Origin: Bacteroidota bacterium
Lineage (GTDB): Bacteria; Bacteroidota; Ignavibacteria; SZUA-365
Direction: 5' to 3'
NCBI GenBank assembly: GCA_014860565.1
Contig: JACZJN010000089.1
Span: 1-39,611, forward strand
DNA: 39,611 nucleotides
The notes under the pieces are model-generated. The model did no database searches and had not been told where the DNA came from. It saw only the letters and a program-made list of their open reading frames with translations. Shown here piece by piece: positions 1-33,949 of the stretch. The translations under genes were made by a program, and so were the position numbers. Position 1 is the first letter of the stretch. Each line of letters opens with the position of its first letter.

Positions 1-90
1 CAGTGCGCGTGTGGTTGACACGAAAGCAGGCACGCGCATCAACAATCATTCAACGGGCCCACAAAATGTTTGTCTCTTTCACCCAAAACG

Positions 91-135
91 CGGACATTTC
101 TATCGTGCGTATAGGGTGGACATTTCTACTTTGCG
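91..135 (+). repeat. Paired 19-bp direct repeats, possible IS21-type element end
   Basis: Two near-identical copies of a GGACATTTCTA-containing 19-mer lie at 91-109 and 117-135, 26 bp apart, sharing 15 or 16 of 19 positions. IS21-family elements carry several short internal repeats of this general form near each end, so this may be the terminus of an element, or the scar of one. No transposase is visible in the 187 bases available and the window starts just upstream, so the assignment is an inference. Nothing else was recognised in bases 1-187. Confidence 0.35.
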
Positions 136-187
136 GTAACACCGTTTTGTTTGTTCCGTGGGCGTGGCCTGCCGCCGTTTCAATTTC

Positions 188-3255: not shown

Positions 3256-3454
3256 GTGCGAAACAAGAATGGCGAACACGAATGTCCCCGGGGTCGACGG
3301 AACAATCTTGGATTTAAGGCCGCAATATCCGGAATCCTCTCGTCTTTGTCAAGAGATTTTCTCCCGTTTTGTTTGTTCAGCGGGCATGCCCGCACTCGGG
3401 GGCTGCGCCGCGAGCTTCTCCGCCCCCGCCATTGAGTCCTTCAGCTTGAACATT
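3256..3454. repeat. Degenerate, internally deleted copy of the MmcQ locus
   Basis: Bases 3256-3396 align without large gaps to 6321-6461 at roughly 70% identity, including a shared block around gatt(t/c)aaggccgcaat and the palindrome CGGGCATGCCCG. Bases 3402-3454 then align to 6678-6730, inside the MmcQ/YjbR gene. The stretch is thus a diverged duplicate of the 6.3-6.7 kb locus from which about 216 bp have been lost. No intact reading frame survives. Bases 3455-3551 hold nothing recognisable. Confidence 0.7.
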
Positions 3455-4106: not shown

Positions 4107-4196
4107 GTCCAACGCCGTGTTTGCCTCACCCGCACGCAGAATCTTTTCCATTTTTCGCCCTTTCGCCAATTCATCCACCAAGGTATTCAGATATCT
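4107..4196 (-). repeat. Copy of the 3' end of the DUF2200 gene
   Basis: This 90-bp block matches 5505-5594 at roughly 90%. It contains the last about 24 codons of the DUF2200 gene ([16 protein letters not shown]) plus about 18 bp of its 3' flank. The TAG stop of the parent is GAG here, so the frame reads on into the SET gene. It abuts the chimeric repeat at 4202-4257. Confidence 0.8.
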
Positions 4197-4201
4197 CCGC
4201 T

Positions 4202-4257
4202 GTGAATCGCGCGGTTACCCAGCCCGTCTTTCCTACCACCGAGGAAACCAGCGCGGG
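4202..4257 (-). repeat. Chimeric repeat: ICMT 3' end joined to MmcQ segment
   Basis: Bases 4211-4257 match 10751-10797 with one difference in 47. Read on the minus strand the block encodes the end of an isoprenylcysteine methyltransferase-like protein (PRWFPRW and stop). It then passes into the MmcQ sequence VGKTGWVTARFTAE; bases 4202-4233 match 6626-6657 with one difference. So the same artificial-looking junction occurs twice in the window, here followed by the DUF2200 tail and at 10.7 kb by a TIM-barrel fragment. Confidence 0.8.
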
Positions 4258-6519: not shown

Positions 6520-6888
6520 TCAGTCGGCCTCGCTGGCATTCGTGGTCACCACGGTTCCGGACGTGATGGCGTAGGACTCCGCCAACCAGTTGCTCCAGAT
6601 ACTCTCCGGCAGCGGCTCCTCCGCGGTGAATCGCGCGGTGACCCAGCCCGTCTTTCCGACCTCGAATCGCGCGGGGTGCTGTCCCGCGAGCTTCTCCGCC
6701 TCCGACATGGAGGCCTTCAGCTTGAAGATTGCCTTGAAACCCAGACCCTTCGGCCCGGGACCAATGAACAGGAAGCTTCCCTTCCCGACCTTGAATGCGC
6801 TCTGTGTGCACGATGCCCCCTCGGATACGCCGGGGAAGCTCAAGGCCTTTCGGCGAATTGCTTCCGTGGGGTCCTTTCGATCGGTCAT
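6520..6888 (-). CDS. MmcQ/YjbR family protein
   Basis: A 122-residue protein of the MmcQ/YjbR family, a CyaY-like fold sometimes described as DNA-binding. It shows the family order: SFPGVSEGASCTQSAFKVGK, then FKAIFKLKA, HPARFEVGKTGWVTARFTAE and the terminal helix ESIWSNWLAESYA. The start at 6888 is preceded by AGGAG at 6-base spacing. It is divergent from the Cys-rich gene at 6963. Pieces of this gene recur at 3402-3454, 4202-4233, 5310-5343, 5941-5998 and 10751-10770, so it is the intact parent of most repeats in the region. Confidence 0.8.
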   Translation of the reverse strand: MTDRKDPTEAIRRKALSFPGVSEGASCTQSAFKVGKGSFLFIGPGPKGLGFKAIFKLKASMSEAEKLAGQHPARFEVGKTGWVTARFTAEEPLPESIWSNWLAESYAITSGTVVTTNASEAD

Positions 6889-6962
6889 GGCCGCTCCTGT
6901 CTTTATTGTCCGCCCGCACTTTCCGCGCAATTCAAATTTCAATCTAACACAACGGAGACACA

Positions 6963-7543: not shown

Positions 7544-8293
7544 TTGATCTACAATAATCTTGACAATTCAATGGATAGTGTAGATATTGGGATTAAGTTG
7601 CTCGGCTTGAGATCGGCATATCTTTTGTACAACGACGCGATTGCGCGTGACACACTGCGAAAATATGCGTTTGAGCCGTTCGATCCTGGAGTCTCTGTAG
7701 ATTTTATCATGAGCACTGCAGTGACAAACCTTGTGATGGCTGAAGTTCTGCTTGATAATGTAGAAGGTGCAGTTCAAACTATGGACAGTGTTATCTATCG
7801 AGAGGTCCCAGACCGCATGCGAGTCCATTATCTCGCAAAGAAGGCCGAATTGCTCATGAAAAGCACTGGGGACTCATCATACATTGCTACCATCGACAGT
7901 TTACTGTACCTGTATCCTACTGACAATGCGGTACTTAACTCGAAGTACATAGTTACCGGCGATGCATCCTATACCACGTGGTACTCTAAACGAATCGGGC
8001 AAGATTCCAGAAACGTCATTCCTAACACTATCGCAATCACTGCGTACCCGTCGCCTGCATCGGCTGTTCAGACTATCACAATCACAAACCTCAAAGTCAT
8101 ATCAAATGTTGCTATTTACGATTATTTAGGTCGAAAGGTAGACAAATCACGTTACGACTATAGCGTGGCGGGTGACAATATTTACTTTTCGTACAATATC
8201 AGCAGCGGTATATATCTTCTGGTAATAACGACTCCGGATCATAGATACAGCAACAAGTTCGTTATTAATACAATTGGAAGCCTATCTAGATGA
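7544..8293 (+). CDS. T9SS-sorted protein, N-terminally truncated
   Basis: The C-terminus is a type A T9SS sorting domain: it runs from ITAYPSPASAVQTITI through a VAIYDYLGRKVD motif to GIYLLVITTPDHRYSNKFVI. Proteins with this domain cross the outer membrane by T9SS and need a Sec signal peptide. None is present: the frame opens with a TTG at 7544 (an ATG at 7570 is the next choice) and no leader precedes it. The gene is therefore probably a fragment whose 5' end was lost. It overlaps the next gene by 4 bp (ATGA). Codon use is much more AT-rich than in neighbouring genes. Confidence 0.6.
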   Translation: MIYNNLDNSMDSVDIGIKLLGLRSAYLLYNDAIARDTLRKYAFEPFDPGVSVDFIMSTAVTNLVMAEVLLDNVEGAVQTMDSVIYREVPDRMRVHYLAKKAELLMKSTGDSSYIATIDSLLYLYPTDNAVLNSKYIVTGDASYTTWYSKRIGQDSRNVIPNTIAITAYPSPASAVQTITITNLKVISNVAIYDYLGRKVDKSRYDYSVAGDNIYFSYNISSGIYLLVITTPDHRYSNKFVINTIGSLSR

Positions 8294-9639
8294 ATGGATC
8301 AACGAGCCATTTCAGTTTTCTCCGTTCCATTCGTGAGCACCACTGCATTGAAAATGCATTTAGCATACTTATTTGCATCATTTGTGTGTTCGGCATTGCT
8401 GCACCTCCAAGCGAGGCGCAGCAATGCTACATACAGACCGAAGATCTTGCGTATGGCAGCTGGTTCGTTCGCGCCGTTTCAGACTCGACATGCCTTGGTC
8501 ATTATTTTGATAAAATCTGTTATGCTAACTACAAGACTCAAGAGATCTATTTCATCTTTAAAAGTGCTGATTTCTTTGGCCTCGAAAGCCCGTTACAAGA
8601 AAAAGTTTACGATATATTGATGTTCGATTCGCTTCTCGTTGTAAATTGGGAAAACGGGTTAGTTTTCAGAATACTTAGGGTAAACGCTGATTCGCAGATC
8701 ACCGAAATTCCATCAATACTCGACCACATGCCACTATTGAAATTCGATTTCTTATCTCGGGGGCAATATTTTGATTTAAGGAAACTCCGGAAGGTTAATG
8801 ACAGTATTTTATTGGTGACTAATCGCGAGACACTTTACAGCTTTAATTTGGCTGGCAATAACGTTCGTTGCATTGATTCACTTCCACTCCATGATCCTGT
8901 ACTAGGCGGCGATCGCTTTGACGCACGAGGTGACACTTTAGTGATTCTTGCCATTCCAGAAAGTCACGCAGTGTTTTATCATATCACTTTCGATGGTTTC
9001 TTTCGAAACCTTGGAGTACAAAACATCGACCATGAACTATTTTATAGGGCAAAGGTCTATTATGGCCATGGTAACATTTATTTGCAAAACAGCAATCTAC
9101 ACGTATTGACTAGAACCGACTCTGGGTTCACATATAGGGAAGGTCCGCACTATAGTTCCCCTTTAGATCTTCTTATTCTACCTAATACTGTTGCGCAACT
9201 TGACATGTCAAATTGGGAACGAATCGACATTTACACTCCTGAACTTGATACAATTTGCAGTATGCCAGAGGCCACCTCGCTTACCGTGCTTTTCGTTTCT
9301 AACTACGGTGACAAAATTTTTATCGCACGTTCTAATGGAATACATACTTTCATCCCAGATACGACAACCTTATTCATCGGGACAGAAGGCGATGTCAATG
9401 AAACTGTTACCCTTTGGCCCAACCCATCTACAGATGGAATTTTTAACGTCTCAAGCAACGAGGCAATCTCTCGGGTTGTCGTGACGGACATGCTGGGTCG
9501 CATCGTCCATACGGCCTCTGGCCCTTTCATGAATACTGCAACCCTCGCGCCTACCGGACTAACTCGAGGTACATATTTCGTATCCGTGCAGTTGGGACGT
9601 TCTATTGTCAGAAAGAGACTCACGGTCGCCTCATATTGA
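8290..9639 (+). CDS. Secreted T9SS-sorted protein, beta-propeller-like
   Basis: A 449-residue protein with a signal segment late in the N-terminus (AFSILICIICVFGIAAPPSEA, cleavage near EA-QQ). A long middle has repeated beta-rich units reminiscent of a beta propeller, but no family match. It ends in a T9SS type A sorting domain (WPNPSTDGIFNVSS, VVVTDMLGRIV, LTRGTYFVSVQLG). It starts in an ATGA overlap with the preceding gene, so translation may be coupled; the first about 20 residues before the hydrophobic segment are unusually long, and a later start is possible. It is a likely cell-surface or secreted protein of unknown role. Confidence 0.7.
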   Translation: MNGSTSHFSFLRSIREHHCIENAFSILICIICVFGIAAPPSEAQQCYIQTEDLAYGSWFVRAVSDSTCLGHYFDKICYANYKTQEIYFIFKSADFFGLESPLQEKVYDILMFDSLLVVNWENGLVFRILRVNADSQITEIPSILDHMPLLKFDFLSRGQYFDLRKLRKVNDSILLVTNRETLYSFNLAGNNVRCIDSLPLHDPVLGGDRFDARGDTLVILAIPESHAVFYHITFDGFFRNLGVQNIDHELFYRAKVYYGHGNIYLQNSNLHVLTRTDSGFTYREGPHYSSPLDLLILPNTVAQLDMSNWERIDIYTPELDTICSMPEATSLTVLFVSNYGDKIFIARSNGIHTFIPDTTTLFIGTEGDVNETVTLWPNPSTDGIFNVSSNEAISRVVVTDMLGRIVHTASGPFMNTATLAPTGLTRGTYFVSVQLGRSIVRKRLTVASY

Positions 9640-10065: not shown

Positions 10066-10740
10066 TCATGGTTTCAACGACCTCAAGTAAGGTACCACCG
10101 CCTCGCTCCAGTACGGTTCCTCGGTTCCCCAGAACAGGTAGTCGAGGTGCAGCGGGTCGCGGGCGTAGGCGGCCAGTTCCTCCGGCAGCGACTCGCCGGG
10201 CATGAAGTTCGCGTAGATCAGCAGGTCGGACTTCCTGAACGCCGCGCGCGCGGACCGCATCAAGTCGCGCATCGCCTCGTAGTACGCCGCCGGCGTGTAC
10301 CCTTCCGGAGGTTCGCCGGCGGAGTCGAAGCCGATCGAGGTCTCAGCGAAGTTGATCCCTGCGATCTTCCCGTCGAACTCGGCGGCCAACGCCTGGAAGA
10401 GCGCGGCCAATCGCGCCCGCACCGCCGGATCCCAACGCCGCGGTACCCAGGCGTCGAAGGCGACGCGACTCTGGTCGTTGTCAGGATGAAAGTACTGTGC
10501 GGCGACTCCGCCGTGGAATTCGGGTTGAGCGAGCAAGTAGTCGGGGACATTGGGGCGCGCCTCGACGAACGAGACGTCCTGGAGTTGGATAAAAAGGCGT
10601 TTGCCCCGCCGCTCAAGGACGGCGAGGTCGTGGCGGATCGCCGACAAGTCGTAGTCGCCCCGCCGCGGTTCGAGCTCGGTCCAGCGGTACTTGAGCTGGG
10701 CGCCGACCAGCGCGGCGGTTTCGACAAATGCCTCCTCCGT
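10066..10740 (-). pseudogene. TIM-barrel glycosidase-like protein, 5' end replaced
   Basis: From about residue TAALVGAQLKYRWTELEPRR the frame resembles a TIM-barrel glycoside-hydrolase-like protein. The segment WTELEPRRGDYDLSAIRHDL is a typical strand-loop of such barrels, followed by LFIQLQDVSF, KIAGINFAETSIGFDS and a terminal LHLDYLFWGTEEPYWSEAV. No natural start or signal peptide exists: upstream, the frame runs into the ICMT/MmcQ repeat at 10751-10797 and the attC at 10897, giving a nonsense N-terminus if translated from 10947. The gene has thus lost its beginning at a recombination junction. Family membership is by fold impression only. Confidence 0.55.
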
Positions 10741-10750
10741 GGCGATTCTC

Positions 10751-10797
10751 GCGGATACCCAGCCCGTCTTTCCTACCACCGAGGAAACCAGCGCGGG
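10751..10797 (-). repeat. Second copy of the ICMT/MmcQ chimeric repeat
   Basis: It matches 4211-4257 at 46 of 47 positions. It carries the ICMT stop region and continues into VGKTGWVSARIATEE, an MmcQ-derived stretch, before changing into the TIM-barrel frame near 10740. Confidence 0.85.
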
Positions 10798-10983: not shown

Positions 10984-11406
10984 GTGTGTTCGTTCCATAC
11001 CATCCTGGATTGCAGCCTTCAGAATATCCAGGTTAATATTCTTGAGCGCCTTGAACTTGATGCAATACCCTGTGATGCTCGCCTTTCCGATCGCGGGCGC
11101 GTACTTTTCCTGCAGATAGTTCTTATCGTTCATTCCCATGATGTACACCGACAGACCCGCTGAATTCGCACTGATACCTATCCGATAAAATTCTTTGGTT
11201 TTCCCATCGGCGTATTTTTTGCTCAGCGTGCCATACCCGATGTTTGGGTTGGATACAACTTTGCCGCTCTCGTCCTTGCCGTCGAGAAACCAAAGTTTGC
11301 AACCTGGGTTCATCTCCAGAATAGCGCCGTGGAGTCTCCGCATGTCTGTTTGTTTGGGCTCTGGTATCGATTCGAGATAGCGATCGATCGGATCATCTAC
11401 TGCCAT
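10978..11406 (-). CDS. DUF1801 family protein
   Basis: A 142-residue protein of the DUF1801 (YdhG/YjhX-like) superfamily. It shows the opening DDPIDRYLESIPEPKQTDMR, RLHGAILEMNPGCKLWF, the central NPNIGYGTL and a C-terminal helix ALKNINLDILKAAIQDGM. The family has no established biochemical role. The start at 11406 is well supported by CCGGAGG seven bases upstream. Its 3' end merges into attC site 3, so it is probably an integron cassette gene. Confidence 0.8.
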   Translation of the reverse strand: MAVDDPIDRYLESIPEPKQTDMRRLHGAILEMNPGCKLWFLDGKDESGKVVSNPNIGYGTLSKKYADGKTKEFYRIGISANSAGLSVYIMGMNDKNYLQEKYAPAIGKASITGYCIKFKALKNINLDILKAAIQDGMERTHV

Positions 11407-11653
11407 TGCATGCCTCCGGGGAAATTGGTCATCAGCCTACCGCCGCGCCGAGCCGCGGCGGTAAGGCATCAGCGTGCCGATGTGCCCGCTGGGCATCAGA
11501 CCCTTGAGGCGAATCGGCCCCAGGCCGAGCAGTCGCTTCGCCATGAACTCTCGAGCGCGCAGGAGCGAAACCCGCTTCCAGGTCCACAGGGGCAGGCGCG
11601 GACGCTACGGGGCGTTGCCAGGCGGGGCAGCACGCAGGCGACGCCTTGGTCTG
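11407..11653. other. Gap with a strong palindrome
   Basis: No gene is recognised. Bases 11435-11467 form a near-perfect inverted repeat (GCCT-ACCGCCGCG / CGCGGCGGT-AAGGC). It ends in GGTAGGC-like heptamers on both strands and may be a decayed recombination site or a transcription stop. A short basic minus-strand frame beginning MAKRLLGLGPIRLKGLMPSG lies above it, without family match or ribosome site. Confidence 0.4.
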
Positions 11654-12115
11654 CTATGCGTCATCGTATGCTTTTTCCAGCGCCGCCACGTCGAGCTTGA
11701 CCATCTTCAGCATCGCGTCCATCACCGCCTGTACCTTCTTCTGGTTTATGTCGCTGATGAGTTCCATGAAACGTCTCGGGACGATCTGCCAGGTGACGCC
11801 GAACGGATCGGTGATCCAACCGCACTGCGAAGGGGTTGCGCCGGCGCCGATCAGTTTGTTCCAGTACTCGTCGACTTCTTCCTGGTTTTCGCAGTCGACA
11901 AAGAGCGAGAACCCTTCGGAGAATGTGAAGTACGGACCGCCATTGTACCCCATGAAGGACTGACCACCGATGACGAATTCGGCGGAAGTGATCGGGCCGT
12001 CCTCGCCGGTACGAGCGATGTTCCTGATCTCTGAGTCCGGGAATGTGGCGGTGTAAAACGCCATGGCAGCTTCGAGCTGGTCATTGAACATCAGGAAAGG
12101 TGTCACTTTGTTCAT
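11654..12115 (-). CDS. PhnB-like VOC family protein
   Basis: A 153-residue member of the PhnB/3-demethylubiquinone-methyltransferase-like branch of the vicinal-oxygen-chelate superfamily. Hallmarks are the start VTPFLMFNDQLEAAMAFY, FPDSEIRNI, GPITSAEFVIGGQSFMGYN, the glutamate-bearing strand CGWITDPFGVTWQIVPR and the C-terminal helix QKKVQAVMDAMLKMVKLD, which in this branch is characteristic. The start at 12115 follows AAAGGAG at good spacing. The function of this branch is not established. Two segments of this gene are re-used in the chimera at 18600-18815. Confidence 0.8.
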   Translation of the reverse strand: MNKVTPFLMFNDQLEAAMAFYTATFPDSEIRNIARTGEDGPITSAEFVIGGQSFMGYNGGPYFTFSEGFSLFVDCENQEEVDEYWNKLIGAGATPSQCGWITDPFGVTWQIVPRRFMELISDINQKKVQAVMDAMLKMVKLDVAALEKAYDDA

Positions 12116-12233
12116 TTGTATGTCTCCTTTGTTATTAATCTCCGTGGTACGCTCGAATTTCGTCGCGCCGCGATGCGCGCGACCGACCGCCTGCCGCTCG
12201 CCTTCGGGCACGACCATCGCAGCGCTGGGAAAA

Positions 12234-12293
12234 TGGCCGAAACCTTCGATGACCACCGACATTGATTCCTCTCAGGAAGACGACAAGTGCCAT
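12234..12293 (-). pseudogene. DUF1697 N-terminal scrap
   Basis: Twenty codons from ATG 12293 read MALVVFLRGINVGGHRRFRP, the characteristic N-terminus of DUF1697 proteins (about 180 residues). After that the frame has no similarity and stops at the start of the VOC leader. It lies 11 bp downstream of the RES toxin stop. Confidence 0.7.
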
Positions 12294-12304
12294 GACAGAC
12301 GGCC

Positions 12305-12775
12305 TCAATAGTCCGTTTTCAGCAGGCGGGGATCGAAGTGAAACTGCCGGGCCTCTCCGATCGTGATTTCGGGAAAAGCGGGATGCCGCGGATTGAGAAG
12401 GAAAACCCTCTCGATGGGAACGACCGCGCTGGGTACCGCCAGCACGACCGAGGATGCATCGGCGATCCATTGCGTTCCCAGAGCGCGGGTCGAGAGAGGG
12501 GCGGGATCGTCCGACCAATCCGGCGGCAGCTCCGCCTGCGACAGTTGCCGGCACAACGTTTCGTCGAAGCTGACCGGTATGCTCTGATACTTCTGAAGGA
12601 TGTTCGGACCCGGAAGGTGGACGAGCATTTCCAACGCGGCCAATGCAAGCGATCCGGCGGTGTACACAACGGGAGTACCGCGTTCATTCCATCGACCGGG
12701 ATACTGGCTTGCGCCCTGTCCGTCGAATGCCGTTTGAAGATGGCGTGACTGAACGATCCTCCATGCGGTGATCAT
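12305..12775 (-). CDS. RES-domain toxin (NAD+-degrading)
   Basis: A 156-residue RES-domain protein, the toxin of the Xre-RES toxin-antitoxin type. Known members deplete cellular NAD+ by glycohydrolase or phosphorylase activity. The conserved elements are present: WRIVQSRH near the start, the RES arginine-glycine motif YPGRWNERGTPVVYTAGSLA, LALAALEMLVHL and the closing FLLNPRHPAFPEITIGEAR with FHFDPRL. The start ATG 12775 shares a base with the antitoxin stop (TGATG); a GTG one codon earlier is an alternative. It is cotranscribed with the antitoxin. Confidence 0.85.
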   Translation of the reverse strand: MITAWRIVQSRHLQTAFDGQGASQYPGRWNERGTPVVYTAGSLALAALEMLVHLPGPNILQKYQSIPVSFDETLCRQLSQAELPPDWSDDPAPLSTRALGTQWIADASSVVLAVPSAVVPIERVFLLNPRHPAFPEITIGEARQFHFDPRLLKTDY

Positions 12776-13206
12776 CACGAAAAGACTCCGTGCTCCAGTC
12801 TGCCGAGGATATCCTCGACCTCGCGCGCACCGGGTTCGGTCTCGGTATAATCGAGCGGCGCGTGTCCGTGCAGCGTTCGCAGCGGTTCATTGAACCAGCG
12901 TCTCGCCGTGTCGATGTCGCCGAATACCTCGACGGCGATGTCAAAAAGCGCGGAGATTCGGAATACGCGTTCGGATTCATCCGGCTGGAGCACGCCCTCG
13001 CGTTTTCGCCGCGCGAAGGTTCGCGGCGCGATACCGGCAGCCGCCGTCAGGCGCTGCGGAGAAAGGTCCATGGCCTCGCACAAATGCTCGAATTCCTCGA
13101 TCGTCAGTCCCGCTTTCAGCCGGTCGATGACCGCGGCCGTGTTGCGTAGCTTCAGACCGAGGGATTTCCCCCGTGATTTTCGGTGCTTCGGATTCGCTGT
13201 GGACAT
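12775..13206 (-). CDS. Xre/MbcA/ParS-type antitoxin
   Basis: A 143-residue antitoxin partner of the RES toxin. The N-terminal half holds a helix-turn-helix (LSPQRLTAAAGIAPRTFARR), and the C-terminal half is the DUF2384 toxin-binding domain (RVFRISALFDIAVEVFGDID and ARRWFNEPLRTLHGHAPLDY). The start ATG 13206 is preceded by CAGGAG at 7-base spacing; the 17 codons upstream in frame lie in the promoter. It is expected to bind its own promoter, which carries an inverted repeat over the -10 element. Confidence 0.85.
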   Translation of the reverse strand: MSTANPKHRKSRGKSLGLKLRNTAAVIDRLKAGLTIEEFEHLCEAMDLSPQRLTAAAGIAPRTFARRKREGVLQPDESERVFRISALFDIAVEVFGDIDTARRWFNEPLRTLHGHAPLDYTETEPGAREVEDILGRLEHGVFS

Positions 13207-13221
13207 GCGTTTCTCCTGATC

Positions 13222-13267
13222 ATGCCAAAGTGCAGAGTAAAGTACGCCATTTGGCATTCCGTGTCAA
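13222..13267 (-). promoter_or_regulatory. Promoter and operator of the Xre-RES operon
   Basis: Minus strand: TTGACA (13262-13267), a 17-base spacer and TACTTT (13239-13244). Two 8-bp arms ATGCCAAA / TTTGGCAT (13222-13229 and 13250-13257) flank the -10 element symmetrically, a classic autorepression operator for the helix-turn-helix antitoxin. Confidence 0.75.
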
Positions 13268-14515: not shown

Positions 14516-17500
14516 TCAATCCTCCGCGGCCGTGGCGTCCTCGCCCAGGCGGACGAGTTCGAGGAAATTCCGATCCGTCATCTCCGTCAACCACTGCTCC
14601 CCGCTCCCCACGACGCTGTCCGCGAGTTCACGCTTTCGTTCGAGTAGTTCGTCGATGCGCTCCTCGAGCGTGCCCGCGACGATGAAGGTGTGCACCTGCA
14701 CGTTTTTCTTCTGTCCGATGCGGAAGGCGCGGTCGGTCGCCTGGTTTTCCACGGCGGGATTCCACCAACGATCGTAATGCACGACGTGATTGGCGCGGGT
14801 GAGCGTGAGTCCGGTCCCCCCCGCCTTCACCGAGAGGATGAATACCGTGGGCGCGGCGGCGTCGGACTGGAAACGCTCGACCATCGCGTCCCGCCGTTTG
14901 CGCGGCACCCCGCCGTGAATGAAGAATACCTCCTCGGTGAAATGTTCCTGCAGCGCCTGCTGGAGCAGCAGTCCCATCTCCATGTACTGGGTGAAGACGA
15001 GGACGTGCTCGCCGCGCCGGCGGATATCCGCGACGATTTCCATGAGCCGCCGGAGTTTCCCCGAACGATGCCGCCACTCGGAGCCATCGCCGAGGAACTG
15101 CGCGGGATGGTTGCAGATCTGTTTGAGACGGAGGAGTGTGGCGAGAATCAGTCCCCGGCGCTGCATTCCTTCCTTCTCTCCGATGCCGGCGGCGAGATTG
15201 CGCACCACCGCTTCATACAGCGTGGCCTGTTCCTTCGTGAGGGGGCAGTACTCCTTCTGCACGATCTTGTCCGGTAAATCGGATATAATGGTCTTGTCCG
15301 TTTTTTCCCGTCGCAGCACGAAAGGCGCGGTGATGCGGCGCAGCTGTGCTGCGGCGCCGCCGTCTCCCCATCGTTGAATCGGAATCTGATAACGGTCGCG
15401 GAATGCGGTATGGTTGCCGAGGAAACCGGGGTTGAGGAATTCCATCAATGCCCACAGGTCGCCCACGCTGTTCTCGACCGGCGTGCCGGTCAGAGCAAAC
15501 CGGTAATCCGCCGTGAGACCGCGTGCCGCGCGGGACTGTTTCGTCTCATGGTTTTTGATATTCTGCGCCTCGTCGAGAATCACTCCCGCCCAGGAAATAC
15601 GTCGCAGATGCTCCACGTCACGGTGCAGCAGGCCGTAACTCGACACCACCATGTGGCTGCGCTTTGCTTCGCTGACGAAGGACTTCTCGCGATGACGCTC
15701 GGGTCCGTGATGTACCATCACCTTCAATGCGGGCGTGAAACGCGCGGCCTCGCGCACCCAGTTGCTCACGACGGTGGTGGGACAGATCAGCAGCACCGGA
15801 CGTCGTTCGCCCGCCGCGCGATCGCGTTCGATCATGGCGAGGGCCTGCACGGTTTTTCCGAGTCCCATGTCGTCGGCGAGACAGGCGCCGAAACCCCATT
15901 GCCGCAGAAAAGCGAGCCAGGAATATCCCCGGAGCTGATAGGGCCGCAGCGTGCCGTTGAAACGCTTCGGCGCGTCGAGCATCTCGAGCCGCTCGCTCCC
16001 CGACAGCTTCGCGGCAAGGTCGGCGATCCACCCCTCCAGCGTGGCGCCGGCGACCGGGAGTCCGTCGATCGTGCGTCCGCTGCCGAGCGACAGCTGCAGC
16101 GCCTCGCGCGCGGTGATGCGTGACGTCGCGTGTTTCTCCATGAGCGCGATGGCGGAGCGGAGTTCATCCTGGTCGATATGCGTCCATTGTCCTCGCAACA
16201 GCACCAGCTGCGATTTCATATCCGCGAGCGCAAGGAGTTCCTCGATTCCCACGCGTTCGTCGCCGATGGAGGCGGAGATATTGTAATCCAGCAGCGCGTC
16301 GAGGGAGAACGCAGACGGGGCGTCCGTTTCCGGGGCCGTGACCTGCGCGCGCAGCGCCACCCGTCGCCGCGCCCCCTGTCGGCTCCACCACCTCGGATAG
16401 AAGATTTCGAAGCCGGACTGCTCGAGCAGCACGGCGTACTCGCGGAGGAAGGCGATGACGTCGTTTCCCTCGAGCGGCATGCCGGTGGGACGCGCGCCCC
16501 GGAGACTCGTCTTCAGCGCGGGATACACCGCCGCGGCCTGCGCCGGCGCGATCAGCAGGAATTCGGTGAGCTGGGGTCCGAACGACTGCAGACGCTGCGC
16601 GGCCTTGCTCCGCGAACGCCAGACCTGGGACAGCGAGAGGAGCAGACTCGGATCGTCGCGGGGTCGTACCAGGAATTCCAGATACCATTCTCCGTTATCC
16701 TGTGCTTCCCCATCAGGTTCCCGCAAACGCAGACCGAAGACGAACGGCGACATGGTGGAGAGTTCCAGCGGCCGTTTCCAGCGGTCGAGTTCCGCGGCGA
16801 ATGCCGCGATCTCGCGTTCGGTCGTCCAGCGCACGACCGCGTCCTTCGCCGTCAGCGCCTCGATCCATGCGTCGTGAAGCGTCGGAAGCTGCTTCCGCTT
16901 CCGGGAAGCGGGTTCCTCGTTGATCTCCAACGGATCGCGCAGGAGCGCATCGACGATTGCATCGAGCAGTCTGTCGAGCAGCAATCCCGGCGAAATCATC
17001 GGCGCCTCCGCTTCGGGAAGCGCCAGGCAGCGAACGACCGCCGGCATGGGCTTCTCCAGCGCGAGCCGCCGGGTGCGGTCCGTTGCATCGATCACCGGCC
17101 GCCACCGCGCTGTCCATTCGGCATTTTCCTGCACGAGGCAGGGGAGGACCCGCCGGCGCCGGACGAGTTCCATGCCGAAGCGCAGCAGCTGCATCGCCCA
17201 GTGCAGGGATTCCCCGATGAGCATGCCGGGCGGCCGCTGATCCGGGTTCATCGCCATGGTGGCGAACTGGAGGAATTCCTCGAACGGCATGCGACGCGCT
17301 ATGACGGGGACGGGAAGCAGGGTGGGAACGCCGGTGAGGGATGTTCGCGAGCCGAGCAGCGGCGATGAAGGCAGCACCGTACGGCCGGCTGCGGGAAGCC
17401 AGGCCGTGCATTTCATGCAATCCCGTCGCGTCGTTTCCGTTCCGGCCAGCAGGTCGTCCAGAGCTTCGGCCAGCGGTTTCATTGCCGTGGGAAATCCATG

Positions 17501-17608
17501 CTCCCGCAGCACGATTTCCTTTCCGGCGGCGTCGAGCGTGGTTCTTCTTCCCTGTTCAATCCAGAAGTACGGTTGTCCGTCATGGACGGAGAAGTGCAAT
17601 GCGATCAT
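14516..17608 (-). CDS. SNF2-family DEAD/DEAH helicase
   Basis: A 1030-residue SWI2/SNF2 ATPase. The C-terminal half has the complete motor: motif I DDMGLGKTVQAL (about residue 580), motif II DEAQNIKN (about 677), motif III LTGTPVEN (about 709), and motifs V-VI in the helicase C lobe (GGTGLTLTRANHVVHYDRWW and QATDRAFRIGQKK, about 960). The N-terminal about 500 residues form the accessory region usual in bacterial SNF2 proteins of this size. It couples ATP hydrolysis to DNA translocation. It forms an operon with the SWIM gene. About 100 bp of its 5' coding region are duplicated in the scrap at 18710-18815. Confidence 0.9.
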   Translation of the reverse strand: MIALHFSVHDGQPYFWIEQGRRTTLDAAGKEIVLREHGFPTAMKPLAEALDDLLAGTETTRRDCMKCTAWLPAAGRTVLPSSPLLGSRTSLTGVPTLLPVPVIARRMPFEEFLQFATMAMNPDQRPPGMLIGESLHWAMQLLRFGMELVRRRRVLPCLVQENAEWTARWRPVIDATDRTRRLALEKPMPAVVRCLALPEAEAPMISPGLLLDRLLDAIVDALLRDPLEINEEPASRKRKQLPTLHDAWIEALTAKDAVVRWTTEREIAAFAAELDRWKRPLELSTMSPFVFGLRLREPDGEAQDNGEWYLEFLVRPRDDPSLLLSLSQVWRSRSKAAQRLQSFGPQLTEFLLIAPAQAAAVYPALKTSLRGARPTGMPLEGNDVIAFLREYAVLLEQSGFEIFYPRWWSRQGARRRVALRAQVTAPETDAPSAFSLDALLDYNISASIGDERVGIEELLALADMKSQLVLLRGQWTHIDQDELRSAIALMEKHATSRITAREALQLSLGSGRTIDGLPVAGATLEGWIADLAAKLSGSERLEMLDAPKRFNGTLRPYQLRGYSWLAFLRQWGFGACLADDMGLGKTVQALAMIERDRAAGERRPVLLICPTTVVSNWVREAARFTPALKVMVHHGPERHREKSFVSEAKRSHMVVSSYGLLHRDVEHLRRISWAGVILDEAQNIKNHETKQSRAARGLTADYRFALTGTPVENSVGDLWALMEFLNPGFLGNHTAFRDRYQIPIQRWGDGGAAAQLRRITAPFVLRREKTDKTIISDLPDKIVQKEYCPLTKEQATLYEAVVRNLAAGIGEKEGMQRRGLILATLLRLKQICNHPAQFLGDGSEWRHRSGKLRRLMEIVADIRRRGEHVLVFTQYMEMGLLLQQALQEHFTEEVFFIHGGVPRKRRDAMVERFQSDAAAPTVFILSVKAGGTGLTLTRANHVVHYDRWWNPAVENQATDRAFRIGQKKNVQVHTFIVAGTLEERIDELLERKRELADSVVGSGEQWLTEMTDRNFLELVRLGEDATAAED

Positions 17609-17799: not shown

Positions 17800-18111
17800 A
17801 TGGCTTACTCGGAAAAACAAAGAATCTTCACGGTCATCTCGGGACTCGAACGTGAGATTCGTGATCTCGGCGTGGAAACGCTTTCGGTGTTCGGATCGAC
17901 GGTCCGCGACGAACTGCGTCCGGACAGCGATATTGATGTGCTCGTCCGTTTCCGCAGTGGCGCGAAGAACTACACGCGCTTCCTCGCGCTTCTCGACCTG
18001 CTCGAACGCCACCTGGGACGGCCGATCGAGCTCGTTACCACCGAGGCGCTCTCACCGTTCATCGGTCCCCACATCCTCACAGAGGCACAGGATGTCATTC
18101 GAGCCGCTTGA
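17800..18111 (+). CDS. mntA: MntA-type nucleotidyltransferase antitoxin
   Basis: A 103-residue minimal nucleotidyltransferase with the family motif GSx10DxD (GSTVRDELRPDSDIDVLV) and a downstream LLDLLERHLGRPIELVT segment. In characterised systems MntA inactivates the HepT RNase by adding AMP to a tyrosine. It overlaps the HepT gene by 20 bp, the usual arrangement. The ATG at 17800 is chosen from the domain start; the ribosome site is poor. The 191 bp up to the divergent SNF2 gene must hold both promoters. Confidence 0.85.
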   Translation: MAYSEKQRIFTVISGLEREIRDLGVETLSVFGSTVRDELRPDSDIDVLVRFRSGAKNYTRFLALLDLLERHLGRPIELVTTEALSPFIGPHILTEAQDVIRAA

Positions 18112-18427
18112 GTATCTCCGTCACATTCTGATCGAGGCAGACTATCTCCGCGCAGCATGCTCGGATACGACCCTGGGGGATTTTGTCACGGACGAGACAC
18201 TCCAACGCGCTGCCGTTCGGAGCCTTGAGATCATAGGCGAAGCAGCGAAGCAGGTGCCGGAGGATTTCCGCTCCCAACATCCTGATGTTGAGTGGCGGTC
18301 AATGGCCGGGATGCGGGACCGGCTTATTCACGCATATTTTGGTATCGACTACGAACTCGTTTGGGATGTCATTCAGAATAGTATACCGCAATTGCGAGCC
18401 CAGGTACTGCGGATCCTGAACATGTGA
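18092..18427 (+). CDS. hepT: HepT-like RNase toxin
   Basis: A 111-residue HEPN-domain protein of the HepT/DUF86 family with the active-site motif Rx4HxY (RDRLIHAYFGID), preceded by the helix RSLEIIGEAAKQVPEDF. The tyrosine of that motif is the residue AMP-modified by MntA. Both HEPN catalytic residues are intact, so a functional toxin-antitoxin pair is likely. The start overlaps the 3' end of mntA. Confidence 0.85.
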   Translation: MSFEPLEYLRHILIEADYLRAACSDTTLGDFVTDETLQRAAVRSLEIIGEAAKQVPEDFRSQHPDVEWRSMAGMRDRLIHAYFGIDYELVWDVIQNSIPQLRAQVLRILNM

Positions 18428-18599
18428 GCACTTCCTGACATCCGCCGTGCCTCGATACGGTCGCTTTGCGAACAGTCAAGCGCCCCCCATTCATTTTCCG
18501 GGCCCGGTCTCATGTGAAATCGAAAAGAAAATGTCATTCAGACCCGGAAGGTTTCGCGCCTGGGCAAGCCGGTACTGATCCGGCAGTCGTACGATGTGC

Positions 18600-18815
18600 A
18601 GCACGTCGAGCTTGACCATCTTCAGCATCGCGTCCATCACCGCCTCTACCTTCTCCTGGTTTTTGTCGCTGATGAACTCCATCCACAACGACGAATTCGG
18701 CGGAAGTGACTGGACCGTGCATTTCATGCAATCCCGTCGCCTCGTTTCCGTCCCGGCCAGCACAACGTCCAACGCTTCTGCCAGCGGTTTCATTGTCGTG
18801 GGAAAACCATGCTCC
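18600..18815 (-). pseudogene. Chimera of VOC and SNF2 gene pieces
   Basis: Bases 18603-18688 match the 3' part of the PhnB-like gene (11690-11767; MEFISDKNQEKVEAVMDAML against MELISDINQKKVQAVMDAML). About 25 bp then match a distant segment of the same gene (11970-11994). Bases 18714-18815 match the SNF2 5' coding region (17402-17515; MKPLAEALDVVLAGTETRRR). All pieces are in the same orientation as their parents. The open frame 18491-18793 is therefore a mosaic and its last 30 codons are unassigned. Bases 18428-18599 hold no gene. Confidence 0.8.
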
Positions 18816-18820
18816 CCGTG

Positions 18821-18985
18821 TCAGCAGACTGCCTCGCCTTCGCGGTTCCGCATCGATCGCGTTGAAAATGCGAGATGTGTTGCGGCAAGCGCACCGACGA
18901 CCAGAATCCAGTCTATCGTCACACCAAGCCGGCCAGCACCGAATGCACCATAGAATAAACCCACCGCGCTCAGGACGAAACACCA
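18821..18985 (-). pseudogene. Membrane-protein C-terminal fragment
   Basis: A frame of about 54 codons reads WCFVLSAVGLFYGAFGAGRL, VTIDWILVVGALAATHLAFS and ends with a basic tail, giving two transmembrane helices and no start. It looks like the end of a small integral membrane protein. No family is evident. It lies between the VOC/SNF2 chimera and the propeller fragment. Confidence 0.4.
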
Positions 18986-18997
18986 GGCCCGGGACTG

Positions 18998-19465
18998 TCA
19001 GTAGATCCTGTCGAATGACTTGCCGTTGAAGCGACACACGCTGCCGTCGCCCAAGCCGAACCACAGGGCGTTCCTCTTGTCCCGGTAGATGGTCCACACC
19101 ATGCGGCTGGTCAGCCCGTCCTCCATCGTGAAGTTCGTCAGCGACGCACCATTGAAGCGCCACGCGCCGTTGTCGCGTGTTCCGAACCAGATGTTGCCGG
19201 CAGCGTCTTCCCCGATCGCGAATATCCGGCCGAGAGAGCCGGACGCCGCTACTCCGTGCGGCAGGGGGAAGGCCAGATACGAAAGCGACCGGCCGTCATA
19301 TCGATACGCACCCTGTCCAGCGGAGCCCGCACGCCTTCCTGGTGGCTTCCAAACCAGAAGCGCCCAATTGGCATGCATTCTTCTCGTTCCTTTCATTATT
19401 TCCTTCGTCTGCATGACAATAAATAATGGCGGTGTATTCCTCGGTGGTCCAGGCGGCAGATCCAT
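18998..19465 (-). pseudogene. Two-component-regulator propeller fragment
   Basis: From GAYRYDGRSLSYLAFPLPHG the frame consists of regulator-propeller blades: IFAIGEDAAGNIWFGTRDNG, AWRFNGASLTNFTMEDGL, and VWTIYRDKRNALWFGLGDG followed by SVCRFNGKSF. Complete proteins have about 14 blades and a signal peptide, usually as extracellular sensors of hybrid kinases; here only about three blades remain. The N-terminal about 55 residues before them are unrelated. It is a gene fragment, although it could be translated. Confidence 0.65.
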
Positions 19466-19477
19466 CGGATGTCCGGG

Positions 19478-20473
19478 TTACGCGAAAGTGATCGCCACGG
19501 CTCCGGATTTCTTCCCTCCCTCCACCAGCCGATGCGCGTCGGCGGCCCCGGACATCGGGAAGCGCTCGGCGACGACGGTTTTGAGTTGTCCCTGTTCGAT
19601 CAGGTCACGGACGGCGAGAAGGTCTTCGCGGCTGCCAGGGGCGAGGGTGCAGAGAACTTTCGGACCACCGAAGAGCGCGGTGCGAAGCATGAGAAGGAGG
19701 TGTTTCGTCTTGAAACTTACGTAGAGGATGCGGCCATCCTTTTTGAGTTCGCGCTTCGCCTGGGAATACGGAAGGCGTCCGCGGATGTCGACGATGAGGT
19801 CGTACTCTTCGCCGCGCTGCGTGAAGTCTTCCCTTTTATAGTCGATCACGGTGTCGGCGCCGAGCGCGTGGACGTAATCCATCCGCCCTGCCCCGCAGAC
19901 GCCGGTGACTTCCGCGCCGAAGTGCTTCGCGATCTGCACGGCCGCGGAACCGATGCCGCCGCTGGCGCCGTTGACGAGGACCTTCTGGCCCGGACGGATT
20001 TGCGCCTTCCGGAGAAAGTGCAACGCCATCATCGCTCCGTACGGTGCGACGGCCGCCTGTTCGAAGTTCATGGTAGTGGGCATCGTTGCGATGGGGCCGT
20101 TTTCCGGCATGCTGAGCAACTCCGCATATGCACCCATCTTCTGTCCGAGATAGCCGAACACCCGGTCTCCCTTGCGGAAGGCCGTCACATCTTTCCCGAC
20201 GGATTCCACTTCTCCCGAGAATTCGCTTCCCAGAATCCCGTTCCTCGGCTTGCCGAGTCCGAAGTACAATTTCGCCATCACCCAGAACAGCATGGGCATG
20301 TTGAAGGCGCGGGGCGTCACCGCCGCGAAATTCCGTCCTGCGAGGTCGCCGTAGTTCACGGATGTCGCATGCACCCGCACGAGAACGTCCTTGTCCCCGG
20401 GCACCGGCGTTGCAATTTCCCTTACCTGCAGGACATCGGGTGATCCGTACGTGTCGTATACAATTGCCTTCAT
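19478..20473 (-). CDS. Zinc-less MDR oxidoreductase (quinone-oxidoreductase-like)
   Basis: A 331-residue NAD(P)-dependent medium-chain dehydrogenase/reductase. N-terminal GroES-like half (MKAIVYDTYGSPDVLQVREI, VLVRVHATSVNYGDL, GSEFSGEVESVGKDVTAF), then a Rossmann half with GQKVLVNGASGGIGSAAVQI and GADTVIDYKREDFT. The catalytic zinc ligands are absent, placing it with quinone oxidoreductase/zeta-crystallin and related NAD(P)-dependent alcohol dehydrogenases. The start at 20473 is preferred because GGAGG lies 8 bases upstream; an ATG at 20488 would include that site. Substrate unknown. Confidence 0.85.
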   Translation of the reverse strand: MKAIVYDTYGSPDVLQVREIATPVPGDKDVLVRVHATSVNYGDLAGRNFAAVTPRAFNMPMLFWVMAKLYFGLGKPRNGILGSEFSGEVESVGKDVTAFRKGDRVFGYLGQKMGAYAELLSMPENGPIATMPTTMNFEQAAVAPYGAMMALHFLRKAQIRPGQKVLVNGASGGIGSAAVQIAKHFGAEVTGVCGAGRMDYVHALGADTVIDYKREDFTQRGEEYDLIVDIRGRLPYSQAKRELKKDGRILYVSFKTKHLLLMLRTALFGGPKVLCTLAPGSREDLLAVRDLIEQGQLKTVVAERFPMSGAADAHRLVEGGKKSGAVAITFA

Positions 20474-27804: not shown

Positions 27805-28147
27805 GTGCAGACCTCACGATTGTATGTATTCCACGGCTATTGAGATGATTGCCGTGAATTCCGCCTTCTTTCTCGTCTTCTGTCAAGTGATACCGTACCC
27901 CTGGCCGAACTGGCGGTTGTGCTGGATGTCGCGACCGGGTACGAAACCATTAATATCCGGAGTTTCCGAGTACTCCGCAAGACAGGAACGCCCGACCGCC
28001 CTATTACTATCCCTGTCCGAGGGAGAAGCCTACTCCCGCGCACCGCGCGCTTTCACAGCGGCGGGAGTTTCATCCACTGCTGTAACTTTCCGCGCCCCCG
28101 TGGGTTTGATTCGGATACGGTTCCCCGAATCATCGCAGCATCCCTCG
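27805..28147. other. Intergenic stretch without a recognised gene
   Basis: About 340 bases between the DUF3224 start and a plus-strand signal-peptide frame. No protein similarity or RNA fold stands out on either strand; the promoter of the DUF3224/AlkZ-related pair presumably lies here. Confidence 0.4.
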
Positions 28148-32488: not shown

Positions 32489-33949
32489 CTACCCTTCCAA
32501 CGCCAGGAGCAAAGGCTCCTCGAGCGCCTCCGCGATCCAACGGACGAAGCGCGCCGCGTCGGCGCCGTCGATGATGCGATGGTCGTAGGTGAGGGAAAGC
32601 GGAAGCATCATGCGGGGTTGGAACGCGCCGTCGATGTAGACAGGTTCGATCGCACTGCGGGACATTCCGAGGATGGCGACTTCGGGCGAATTGATGATCG
32701 GTGTGAATGCCGTGCCGCCGATGCCGCCGAGATTCGTGATGGTGAAGCTGGCGCCCTGCATGTCGTCGGGCATGATCTTCTTCGCCCGGGCTTTCTCGGC
32801 GAGGTCCTGCATCTCTTTCGAGATTTCGATGATGTTCTTCTTATCCACGTCGCGCACGACCGGGACGAGCAGTCCGCGCTCGGTATCGACGGCGACGCCG
32901 AGATGCACGTACTTCTTGACGATGATCTCGCCGCTTTCCATGTCGATCGAGGCGTTGAACTGCGGGAACTTCCGCAGCGCCGCCGCGGCGACTTTCATCG
33001 CGATGGCGGTGACGGTGAGCTTCACCCCCGCCCGTTCAGCCTTTTTCGCATACGCCTTCCGCAGCTCTTCGAGACGGGTGACGTCGGCCTTGTCATGATG
33101 CGTGACGGTGGGAATGGCGCCGGAGATTTCCATCTGCCCGGCGGTCATGCGCCGCACCTTGCTCATGGGTTCGCGCGTCACCTCGCCCCAGACCGAGAAG
33201 TCCGTAAGCTTGGGACGCGGAGCGCCTGCCATGACGACCGTTCCGGCTGCACCGGTGGCAGGACCACCTGCCGCAAGGACAGACTTGACATATTTCTTGA
33301 CGTCCTCCTCGGAGATGCGTCCGCCCGGACCGCTGCCCGGCACCTGGGTCACGTCCACGCCGAGTTCGCGGGCGAACATCCGCACGCTGGGCGCGGCGGG
33401 CACGGGCACGCCTTCGCGGGGACCCGGCACGGGCGGCGGCGGGGCCATGGCGTTCTGGGGGACCGTACGGCGTGCGGAGGCTGCGGGGACCGCGGACGTC
33501 TGGGGCTCGCTGTCCCGGGGCTCACGCCCCGGGTTCTGCGAAGGCCGCCCCTCCGGGGCTGAGGCCTGGGACTCACGTCCCAGGGATGGCGAAGGCCGCC
33601 CCTCCAGGGCTCCAGCTTCTTCCGTCCCTGCCGCTCCTTCCGTCCCTGCCGCTCCTTCCGCTCCTTCCGCTCCTCCCGTCCCTGCCGCTCCTTCCGCTCC
33701 TTTCGCTCCTGCCGCTTCCTCCACGATGAAGATTACGGATCCGACTTTCGCCGGCTTCCCTTCTTCGGCTTTAATGGCTGCAATTTTTCCGGCGACGGGA
33801 GAGGGGACGTCGAAGGACGCCTTGTCGGTCTCGAGTTCCAGCAGCGGCTGGTCGACGGTGACCGTGTCGCCGACGGAGACCAGCACCTTGACAACGTCAC
33901 CCGCGGTTATGTTCTCACCAAGTTCGGGCAGTTTTACTTCGGTAGGCAT
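32489..33949 (-). CDS. aceF: Pyruvate dehydrogenase E2, dihydrolipoyl acetyltransferase
   Basis: A 486-residue E2. One N-terminal lipoyl domain with the lipoylated lysine K43 (LLELETDKASFDVPSPVAGK). A low-complexity Ala/Gly/Glu linker follows, then a peripheral-subunit-binding domain (SVRMFARELGVDVTQVPGSG and GRISEEDVKKYVK) and the 2-oxoacid-dehydrogenase acyltransferase core ending in the active-site LTYDHRIIDGADAARFV. It transfers the acetyl group to CoA. The start has AAAGGA; aceE ends 12 bp upstream. The linker includes a 17-residue tandem repeat made of a palindromic DNA element. Confidence 0.95.
   Translation of the reverse strand: MPTEVKLPELGENITAGDVVKVLVSVGDTVTVDQPLLELETDKASFDVPSPVAGKIAAIKAEEGKPAKVGSVIFIVEEAAGAKGAEGAAGTGGAEGAEGAAGTEGAAGTEEAGALEGRPSPSLGRESQASAPEGRPSQNPGREPRDSEPQTSAVPAASARRTVPQNAMAPPPPVPGPREGVPVPAAPSVRMFARELGVDVTQVPGSGPGGRISEEDVKKYVKSVLAAGGPATGAAGTVVMAGAPRPKLTDFSVWGEVTREPMSKVRRMTAGQMEISGAIPTVTHHDKADVTRLEELRKAYAKKAERAGVKLTVTAIAMKVAAAALRKFPQFNASIDMESGEIIVKKYVHLGVAVDTERGLLVPVVRDVDKKNIIEISKEMQDLAEKARAKKIMPDDMQGASFTITNLGGIGGTAFTPIINSPEVAILGMSRSAIEPVYIDGAFQPRMMLPLSLTYDHRIIDGADAARFVRWIAEALEEPLLLALEG
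33513..33612 (-). repeat. 51-bp palindromic tandem repeat inside aceF
   Basis: Two 51-bp units, from 33513 and 33564, each open with a palindrome (CCCGGGGCTCACGCCCCGGG-type and CCTGGGACTCACGTCCCAGG) followed by a shared GCGAAGGCCGCCCCTCC block. Being a multiple of three, they add 17 residues each (EGRPSPSLGRESQASAP and EGRPSQNPGREPRDSEP) in frame, in the flexible linker. The pattern resembles a mobile palindromic element that inserted in a gene and duplicated. Confidence 0.8.

Follow-up and report, generated by a model that had tools for sequence, protein, structure and literature searches.

A mosaic of VOC and SNF2 gene pieces in a draft bacterial genome, probably the remnant of a second gene block reduced by deletions

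Background

The deletion-driven loss of bacterial pseudogenes is well established (Kuo and Ochman 2010, PMC2916853), and the locus considered here resembles it in that non-functional genes are removed by deletion and degraded remnants persist beside intact genes. In contrast to those pseudogenes, the remnants of several genes here abut one another and resemble a deliberate fusion, and they would have originated from a second copy. It is likewise established that small variable segments are ascribed to illegitimate recombination (Touzain et al. 2010, PMC2884548), although the strains compared there were of E. coli, S. aureus and S. pyogenes, whereas the present case concerns a single strain. 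The window, i.e., the whole stretch of DNA analysed, comprises 39,611 nucleotides and represents the complete contig C158 of a 223-contig, 4.75-Mb draft genome, which is probably metagenome-assembled.

Templated insertion by template switching (FoSTeS/MMBIR) has been studied mainly in eukaryotes. This process and the present mosaic share the joining of short nearby pieces and the presence of microhomology at one joint; however, the mosaic is strictly colinear, has one blunt joint and carries an old divergence. On its sequence, it is best read as a decayed bacterial gene remnant and not as the outcome of dedicated shuffling machinery.

Composition of the mosaic

Self-BLAST and ungapped alignment divide the 215 bases near 18.6 kb into three pieces from two nearby genes, a VOC (PhnB-like) gene and an SNF2 gene (Table 1), which bears out the two VOC pieces and one SNF2 piece proposed in a sequence-only reading of the window. 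The two joints placed there at about 18690 and 18712 do exist, but lie at 18682/18683 and within 18713-18718, respectively. The helicase piece, described as the SNF2 5' end, covers codons 35-68 and not the extreme 5' end, and the helicase itself, taken for core-like, is accessory, with a full-length gene in only four of the ten family genomes; VOC genes are, like SNF2, patchily distributed.

Judged by the alignment statistics, chance is ruled out for the 81-nt VOC and the 102-nt SNF2 pieces, and the assignment of the 29-nt VOC piece rests on its place between these two long ones. This short piece matches without gaps over 18690-18718 (11972-12000 in the parent, 90%), and a 1-nt gap extends the match back to 18683. 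When the interval 18480-18850 is searched against the whole 4.75-Mb genome, the parents of the mosaic are the sole matches. The joined sequence has no further copy in the genome or in 60 relatives, where the matches are short parts and, in the closest relatives, belong to orthologues of the separate genes.

The three pieces share one strand and keep the parental order (11.69 < 11.97 < 17.40 kb), the net loss relative to the whole block being ~0.2 kb inside VOC and ~5.4 kb from VOC to SNF2. Microhomology, which had been suggested as a check for both joints, is present at one of them: the VOC/SNF2 joint bears the 6-nt GGCCGT, a run whose length has a chance of ~0.3%, whereas the VOC/VOC joint is blunt.

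Table 1. Features of the window that bear on the mosaic (coordinates in nucleotides of the window)
Feature	Position	Strand	Remarks
Integron integrase C-terminal remnant, 41 aa	3046-3168	-	TIGR02249, E 6e-13
VOC/PhnB-like gene, intact, resident parent	11654-12115	-	PF06983
RES-Xre toxin-antitoxin-type pair, between the two parents	12305-13257	-
SNF2/DUF3670 helicase gene, intact, resident parent	14516-17608	-	accessory in family
Nucleotidyltransferase/HepT pair, between SNF2 gene and mosaic	17800-18427	+
100-aa ORF across mosaic	18491-18793	-	no Pfam match; chance ORF
VOC/PhnB-like gene remnant	18602-18682	-	parent 11687-11767, near parent 3' end; 81 nt, 94%, E 8e-29
Second VOC piece	18683-18718	-	parent ~11965-12000; read by ORF 18491-18793 outside its native frame
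6-nt microhomology GGCCGT, VOC/SNF2 joint	18713-18718	.	in both parents; mosaic copy reads GACCGT
SNF2 gene remnant, codons 35-68	18715-18816	-	parent 17404-17505; 102 nt, 90%, E 1e-33
Possible 3' end of membrane-protein gene	18824-18988	-	weak relative (49% over 37 aa) from another genus
Two-component-regulator-type propeller gene remnant	18998-19342	-	two colinear pieces around ~290-bp deletion, 5' part missing

A mosaic in a draft of 223 contigs might be suspected of being an assembly chimaera. This is very unlikely, as fragment and parents differ by 6-10% and the longest exact run common to both is 44 nt, far under the 141 nt of the overlaps at contig ends, which makes a collapse or mis-joining via parental repeats improbable; moreover, remnants of the same kind occur at 18998-19342 and on another contig, C172. 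A search of assembled contigs for an independent assembly returned only distant helicases. As a separate observation, window positions 1-141 recur as an identical sequence of 138-141 bp at the ends of contigs C211, C49, C199 (both ends) and C12, an overlap probably produced by the assembly at a repeated element, and 141 nt looks like the word length of the assembler.

The spanning reading frame

The sequence-only reading had emphasised that the pieces are fused in one open frame. An ORF of 100 aa does span them. It follows the native frame in the SNF2 piece and in the last VOC piece but departs from it in the middle VOC piece, and its openness is at chance level: 185 of 400 Markov controls contain an ORF of 100 aa or more across this interval. 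That the mosaic is a new chimeric gene under selection, encoding this ORF, is thus scarcely credible: the two native frames speak for it, whereas the frequency of equally long chance ORFs, the out-of-frame middle piece, the lack of a Pfam domain in the ORF and its absence from 60 relatives speak against it. A selected reading frame at 18491-18793 was rejected, since its openness lies within chance. The mosaic contains no complete domain, nor any ORF that exceeds chance, and is, as far as can be seen, without a function of its own.

Joints of both kinds occur among the gene pieces compared. For instance, the frame is kept in RibD-Xre (C172), in YjbR with the 10.7-kb ORF, in the propeller remnant and in an oxidoreductase of the congener G002, and it is lost in DUF2200/YjbR (4.2 kb), in PEMT-like/YjbR and at both VOC joints. 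Frame-preserving fusion as a rule was rejected, the in-frame excess being unconvincing given the out-of-frame joints.

Age and origin of the fragment

The three pieces diverge from their parents by 6%, 10% and 10%, similar values that fit one age. The 18 differences between fragment and parents fall on codon positions as 7/3/8 and are derived about equally in parent and copy. At the nine sites polarised by agreement of the outgroups, six of which (those in SNF2) rest on a single outgroup that is ~30% diverged, the derived state is in the intact genes at five (11748, 17452, 17454, 17462 and 17485) and in the fragment at four (11761, 11993, 17430 and 17461). Had the resident genes been copied recently, nearly all changes would lie on the fragment, and the observed ratio of five to four suggests that the two versions separated some time ago, in an old split and not by recent local copying.

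The mosaic is therefore probably what remains of a second, old version of the VOC-to-SNF2 block, reduced by deletions. Two related versions would once have been present in the lineage, owing either to a tandem duplication of ~11.7-17.5 kb or to the uptake of a relative's version; one would have been kept intact while the other lost its function. Successive deletions, ~0.2 kb inside VOC and ~5.4 kb from VOC to SNF2, the latter ending in the 6-nt repeat, would then have left three short colinear pieces beside the remnants of other decayed genes. We infer both the former whole second block and the order of the deletions. The colinear order on one strand is what a second 11.7-17.5 kb block cut by two deletions would show, the microhomology at the VOC/SNF2 joint is as expected for RecA-independent deletion, and comparable decay is seen nearby, in the propeller remnant, and in the congener, in the oxidoreductase deletions. 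Intact homologues of the remnants exist (VOC and SNF2 in the window, the propeller gene in G008, of a related genus), and the pieces follow the order of the intact gene or block, with deletions between them. On the other hand, the blunt VOC/VOC joint counts against a deletion model, as do VOC and Xre pieces on C172 that are not colinear with their parents in the window and indicate that gene pieces do reach other places. The far ends of a duplicated block are missing as well, which also counts against the model: sequence resembling the VOC 3' flank is absent before 18602, as is any resembling the SNF2 start after 18816.

One sub-case of this explanation, possible but doubtful, is that the fragment represents the original genes of the lineage and that the intact VOC-SNF2 block was later re-acquired from a relative. 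The equal division of derived changes between parent and fragment, the patchy distribution of the SNF2 and VOC genes and the toxin-antitoxin-type pairs between and beside the parents would all suit such a history, although the genomes compared do not distinguish it from tandem duplication.

Alternatively, the three pieces may have been joined in one event by a polymerase that changed from one nearby template to another (copy-choice, FoSTeS/MMBIR-like) in the course of repair or while replication was stalled, with neutral divergence thereafter. Such a templated insertion is consistent with the short pieces coming from within 1-7 kb, with the one 6-nt microhomology and with the clustering of similar mosaics at 3-11 kb, including the PEMT-like/YjbR joint at 4195-4257 and 10735-10797. 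It is nevertheless unlikely, because every adjacent joint seen keeps the parental order and strand, to which template jumps are not bound, because the VOC/VOC joint is blunt, because the parents have about as many derived changes as the copy, and because the propeller remnant next door has no local template. If the mosaic is indeed a decayed second block, a variable gene region that undergoes one deletion after another can retain stretches resembling engineered gene fusions. On current evidence, the mosaic calls for caution when gene-fragment mosaics and small predicted ORFs of draft genomes are interpreted.

Adjacent and comparable remnants

The propeller gene whose remnant follows the mosaic is intact in G008 (L167, ORF 11298-12443), and this genome, 97.8% complete, contains no close intact copy of it; remnants thus arise here without a local parent. 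On the other side of the mosaic, a search with 18491-18601 gave no significant relative. At the orthologous SNF2-SWIM locus of G002, the oxidoreductase lacks two internal blocks, its pieces being colinear with window 19477-20473; a 3' piece of SWIM is found beyond RES-Xre, with a match to window 27844-27997 located in between. With its two internal deletions, this oxidoreductase (L122, G002:C130, 5346-5994) retains a still-open frame of ~215 aa and, on its sequence, is possibly still expressed.

Another example is provided by contig C172 (L035, G000:C172), where a RibD_C-like frame at 8587-9150 has as its 3' end that of an Xre/MbcA antitoxin gene. The Xre piece is 87% identical to window 12800-12885, and a VOC piece of 71 nt (8251-8321; 90%; parent 11926-11996) lies ~270 bp upstream of the RibD_C-like frame. 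In G008, which belongs to a different genus, the start of a SnoaL-like gene recurs as a 72-bp copy (86%; L167, G008:C5, 8967-9038 and 9839-9910), 0.9 kb from the intact gene and close to the VOC gene. The region of the mosaic resembles a graveyard of accessory genes undergoing rearrangement, with repeated gene gain and decay by deletion.

Integron and other candidate mechanisms

A strict pattern scan of 1-20.5 kb, which could miss degenerate sites, detected no paired RYYYAAC/GTTRRRY core sites, in keeping with the earlier description of the mosaic as outside any attC; integron recombination therefore does not explain the sequence at 18.6 kb. Twelve genomes, this one included, contain no match to an intact integron integrase above the cut-off, and since only the 41-aa remnant is left, the integron appears dead. 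An integron origin was rejected on these grounds, the broken integrase lying 15 kb away. Further candidates were rejected as well: a plasmid origin, for which the search gave no match; Ku-dependent end joining, for which PF02735 is matched neither in this genome nor in 11 relatives; and retro-copying, the one reverse transcriptase being located elsewhere (C136) with nothing linking it to the mosaic.

Local repeats at 3-19 kb

Short local repeats, defined as up to 300 nt with at least 75% identity, form eight pairs in the window, every one of them direct and located at 3-19 kb, compared with 22 in 1.08 Mb of other sampled contigs (the survey covered ~1.1 of 4.75 Mb, about a quarter of the genome). 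The interval 3-19 kb is a hotspot of duplicated pieces whose orientation is kept. The general local shuffling proposed earlier is supported insofar as direct local repeats are unusually dense, but shuffling of pieces from nearby parents is not supported, given that the pieces are colinear, only one of the two joints has microhomology, parents and fragment are about equally derived and the propeller remnant is parentless. Kept orientation and dense duplicates are given by direct duplication followed by deletion, and could also be given by strand-faithful template switching; colinear joints, the old split and parentless remnants favour duplication and deletion. All four adjacent-piece joints examined in the window (two at 18.6 kb, and those at 3.25/3.40 kb and 4.11/4.20 kb) are colinear. 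It is improbable that an unknown local copy-choice process repeatedly transfers copies of 30-150-bp gene pieces over a few kb without changing their orientation, assembling mosaic frames at 3-19 kb and likewise at related loci of the family; if it did, bacterial mosaic genes would have in it a local source that preserves orientation.

Within this interval, the YjbR-family gene at 6520-6891 has pieces at 3398, 4195, 5310, 5940 and 10735, within ~7 kb and in the same orientation. The joint between YjbR and the PEMT-like 3' end occurs twice, 6.5 kb apart, with different outer neighbours, and, judged from the two copies, is a mosaic that has itself been duplicated. The tail common to 4238-4257 and 10778-10797 was rejected as a YjbR variant, since another frame resembles the end of a PEMT-like methyltransferase (no Pfam support). 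Finally, window 33592-33726 carries an array of 9-nt repeats (CTnCCGCTC-like), and similar repeats are present on contig C53.
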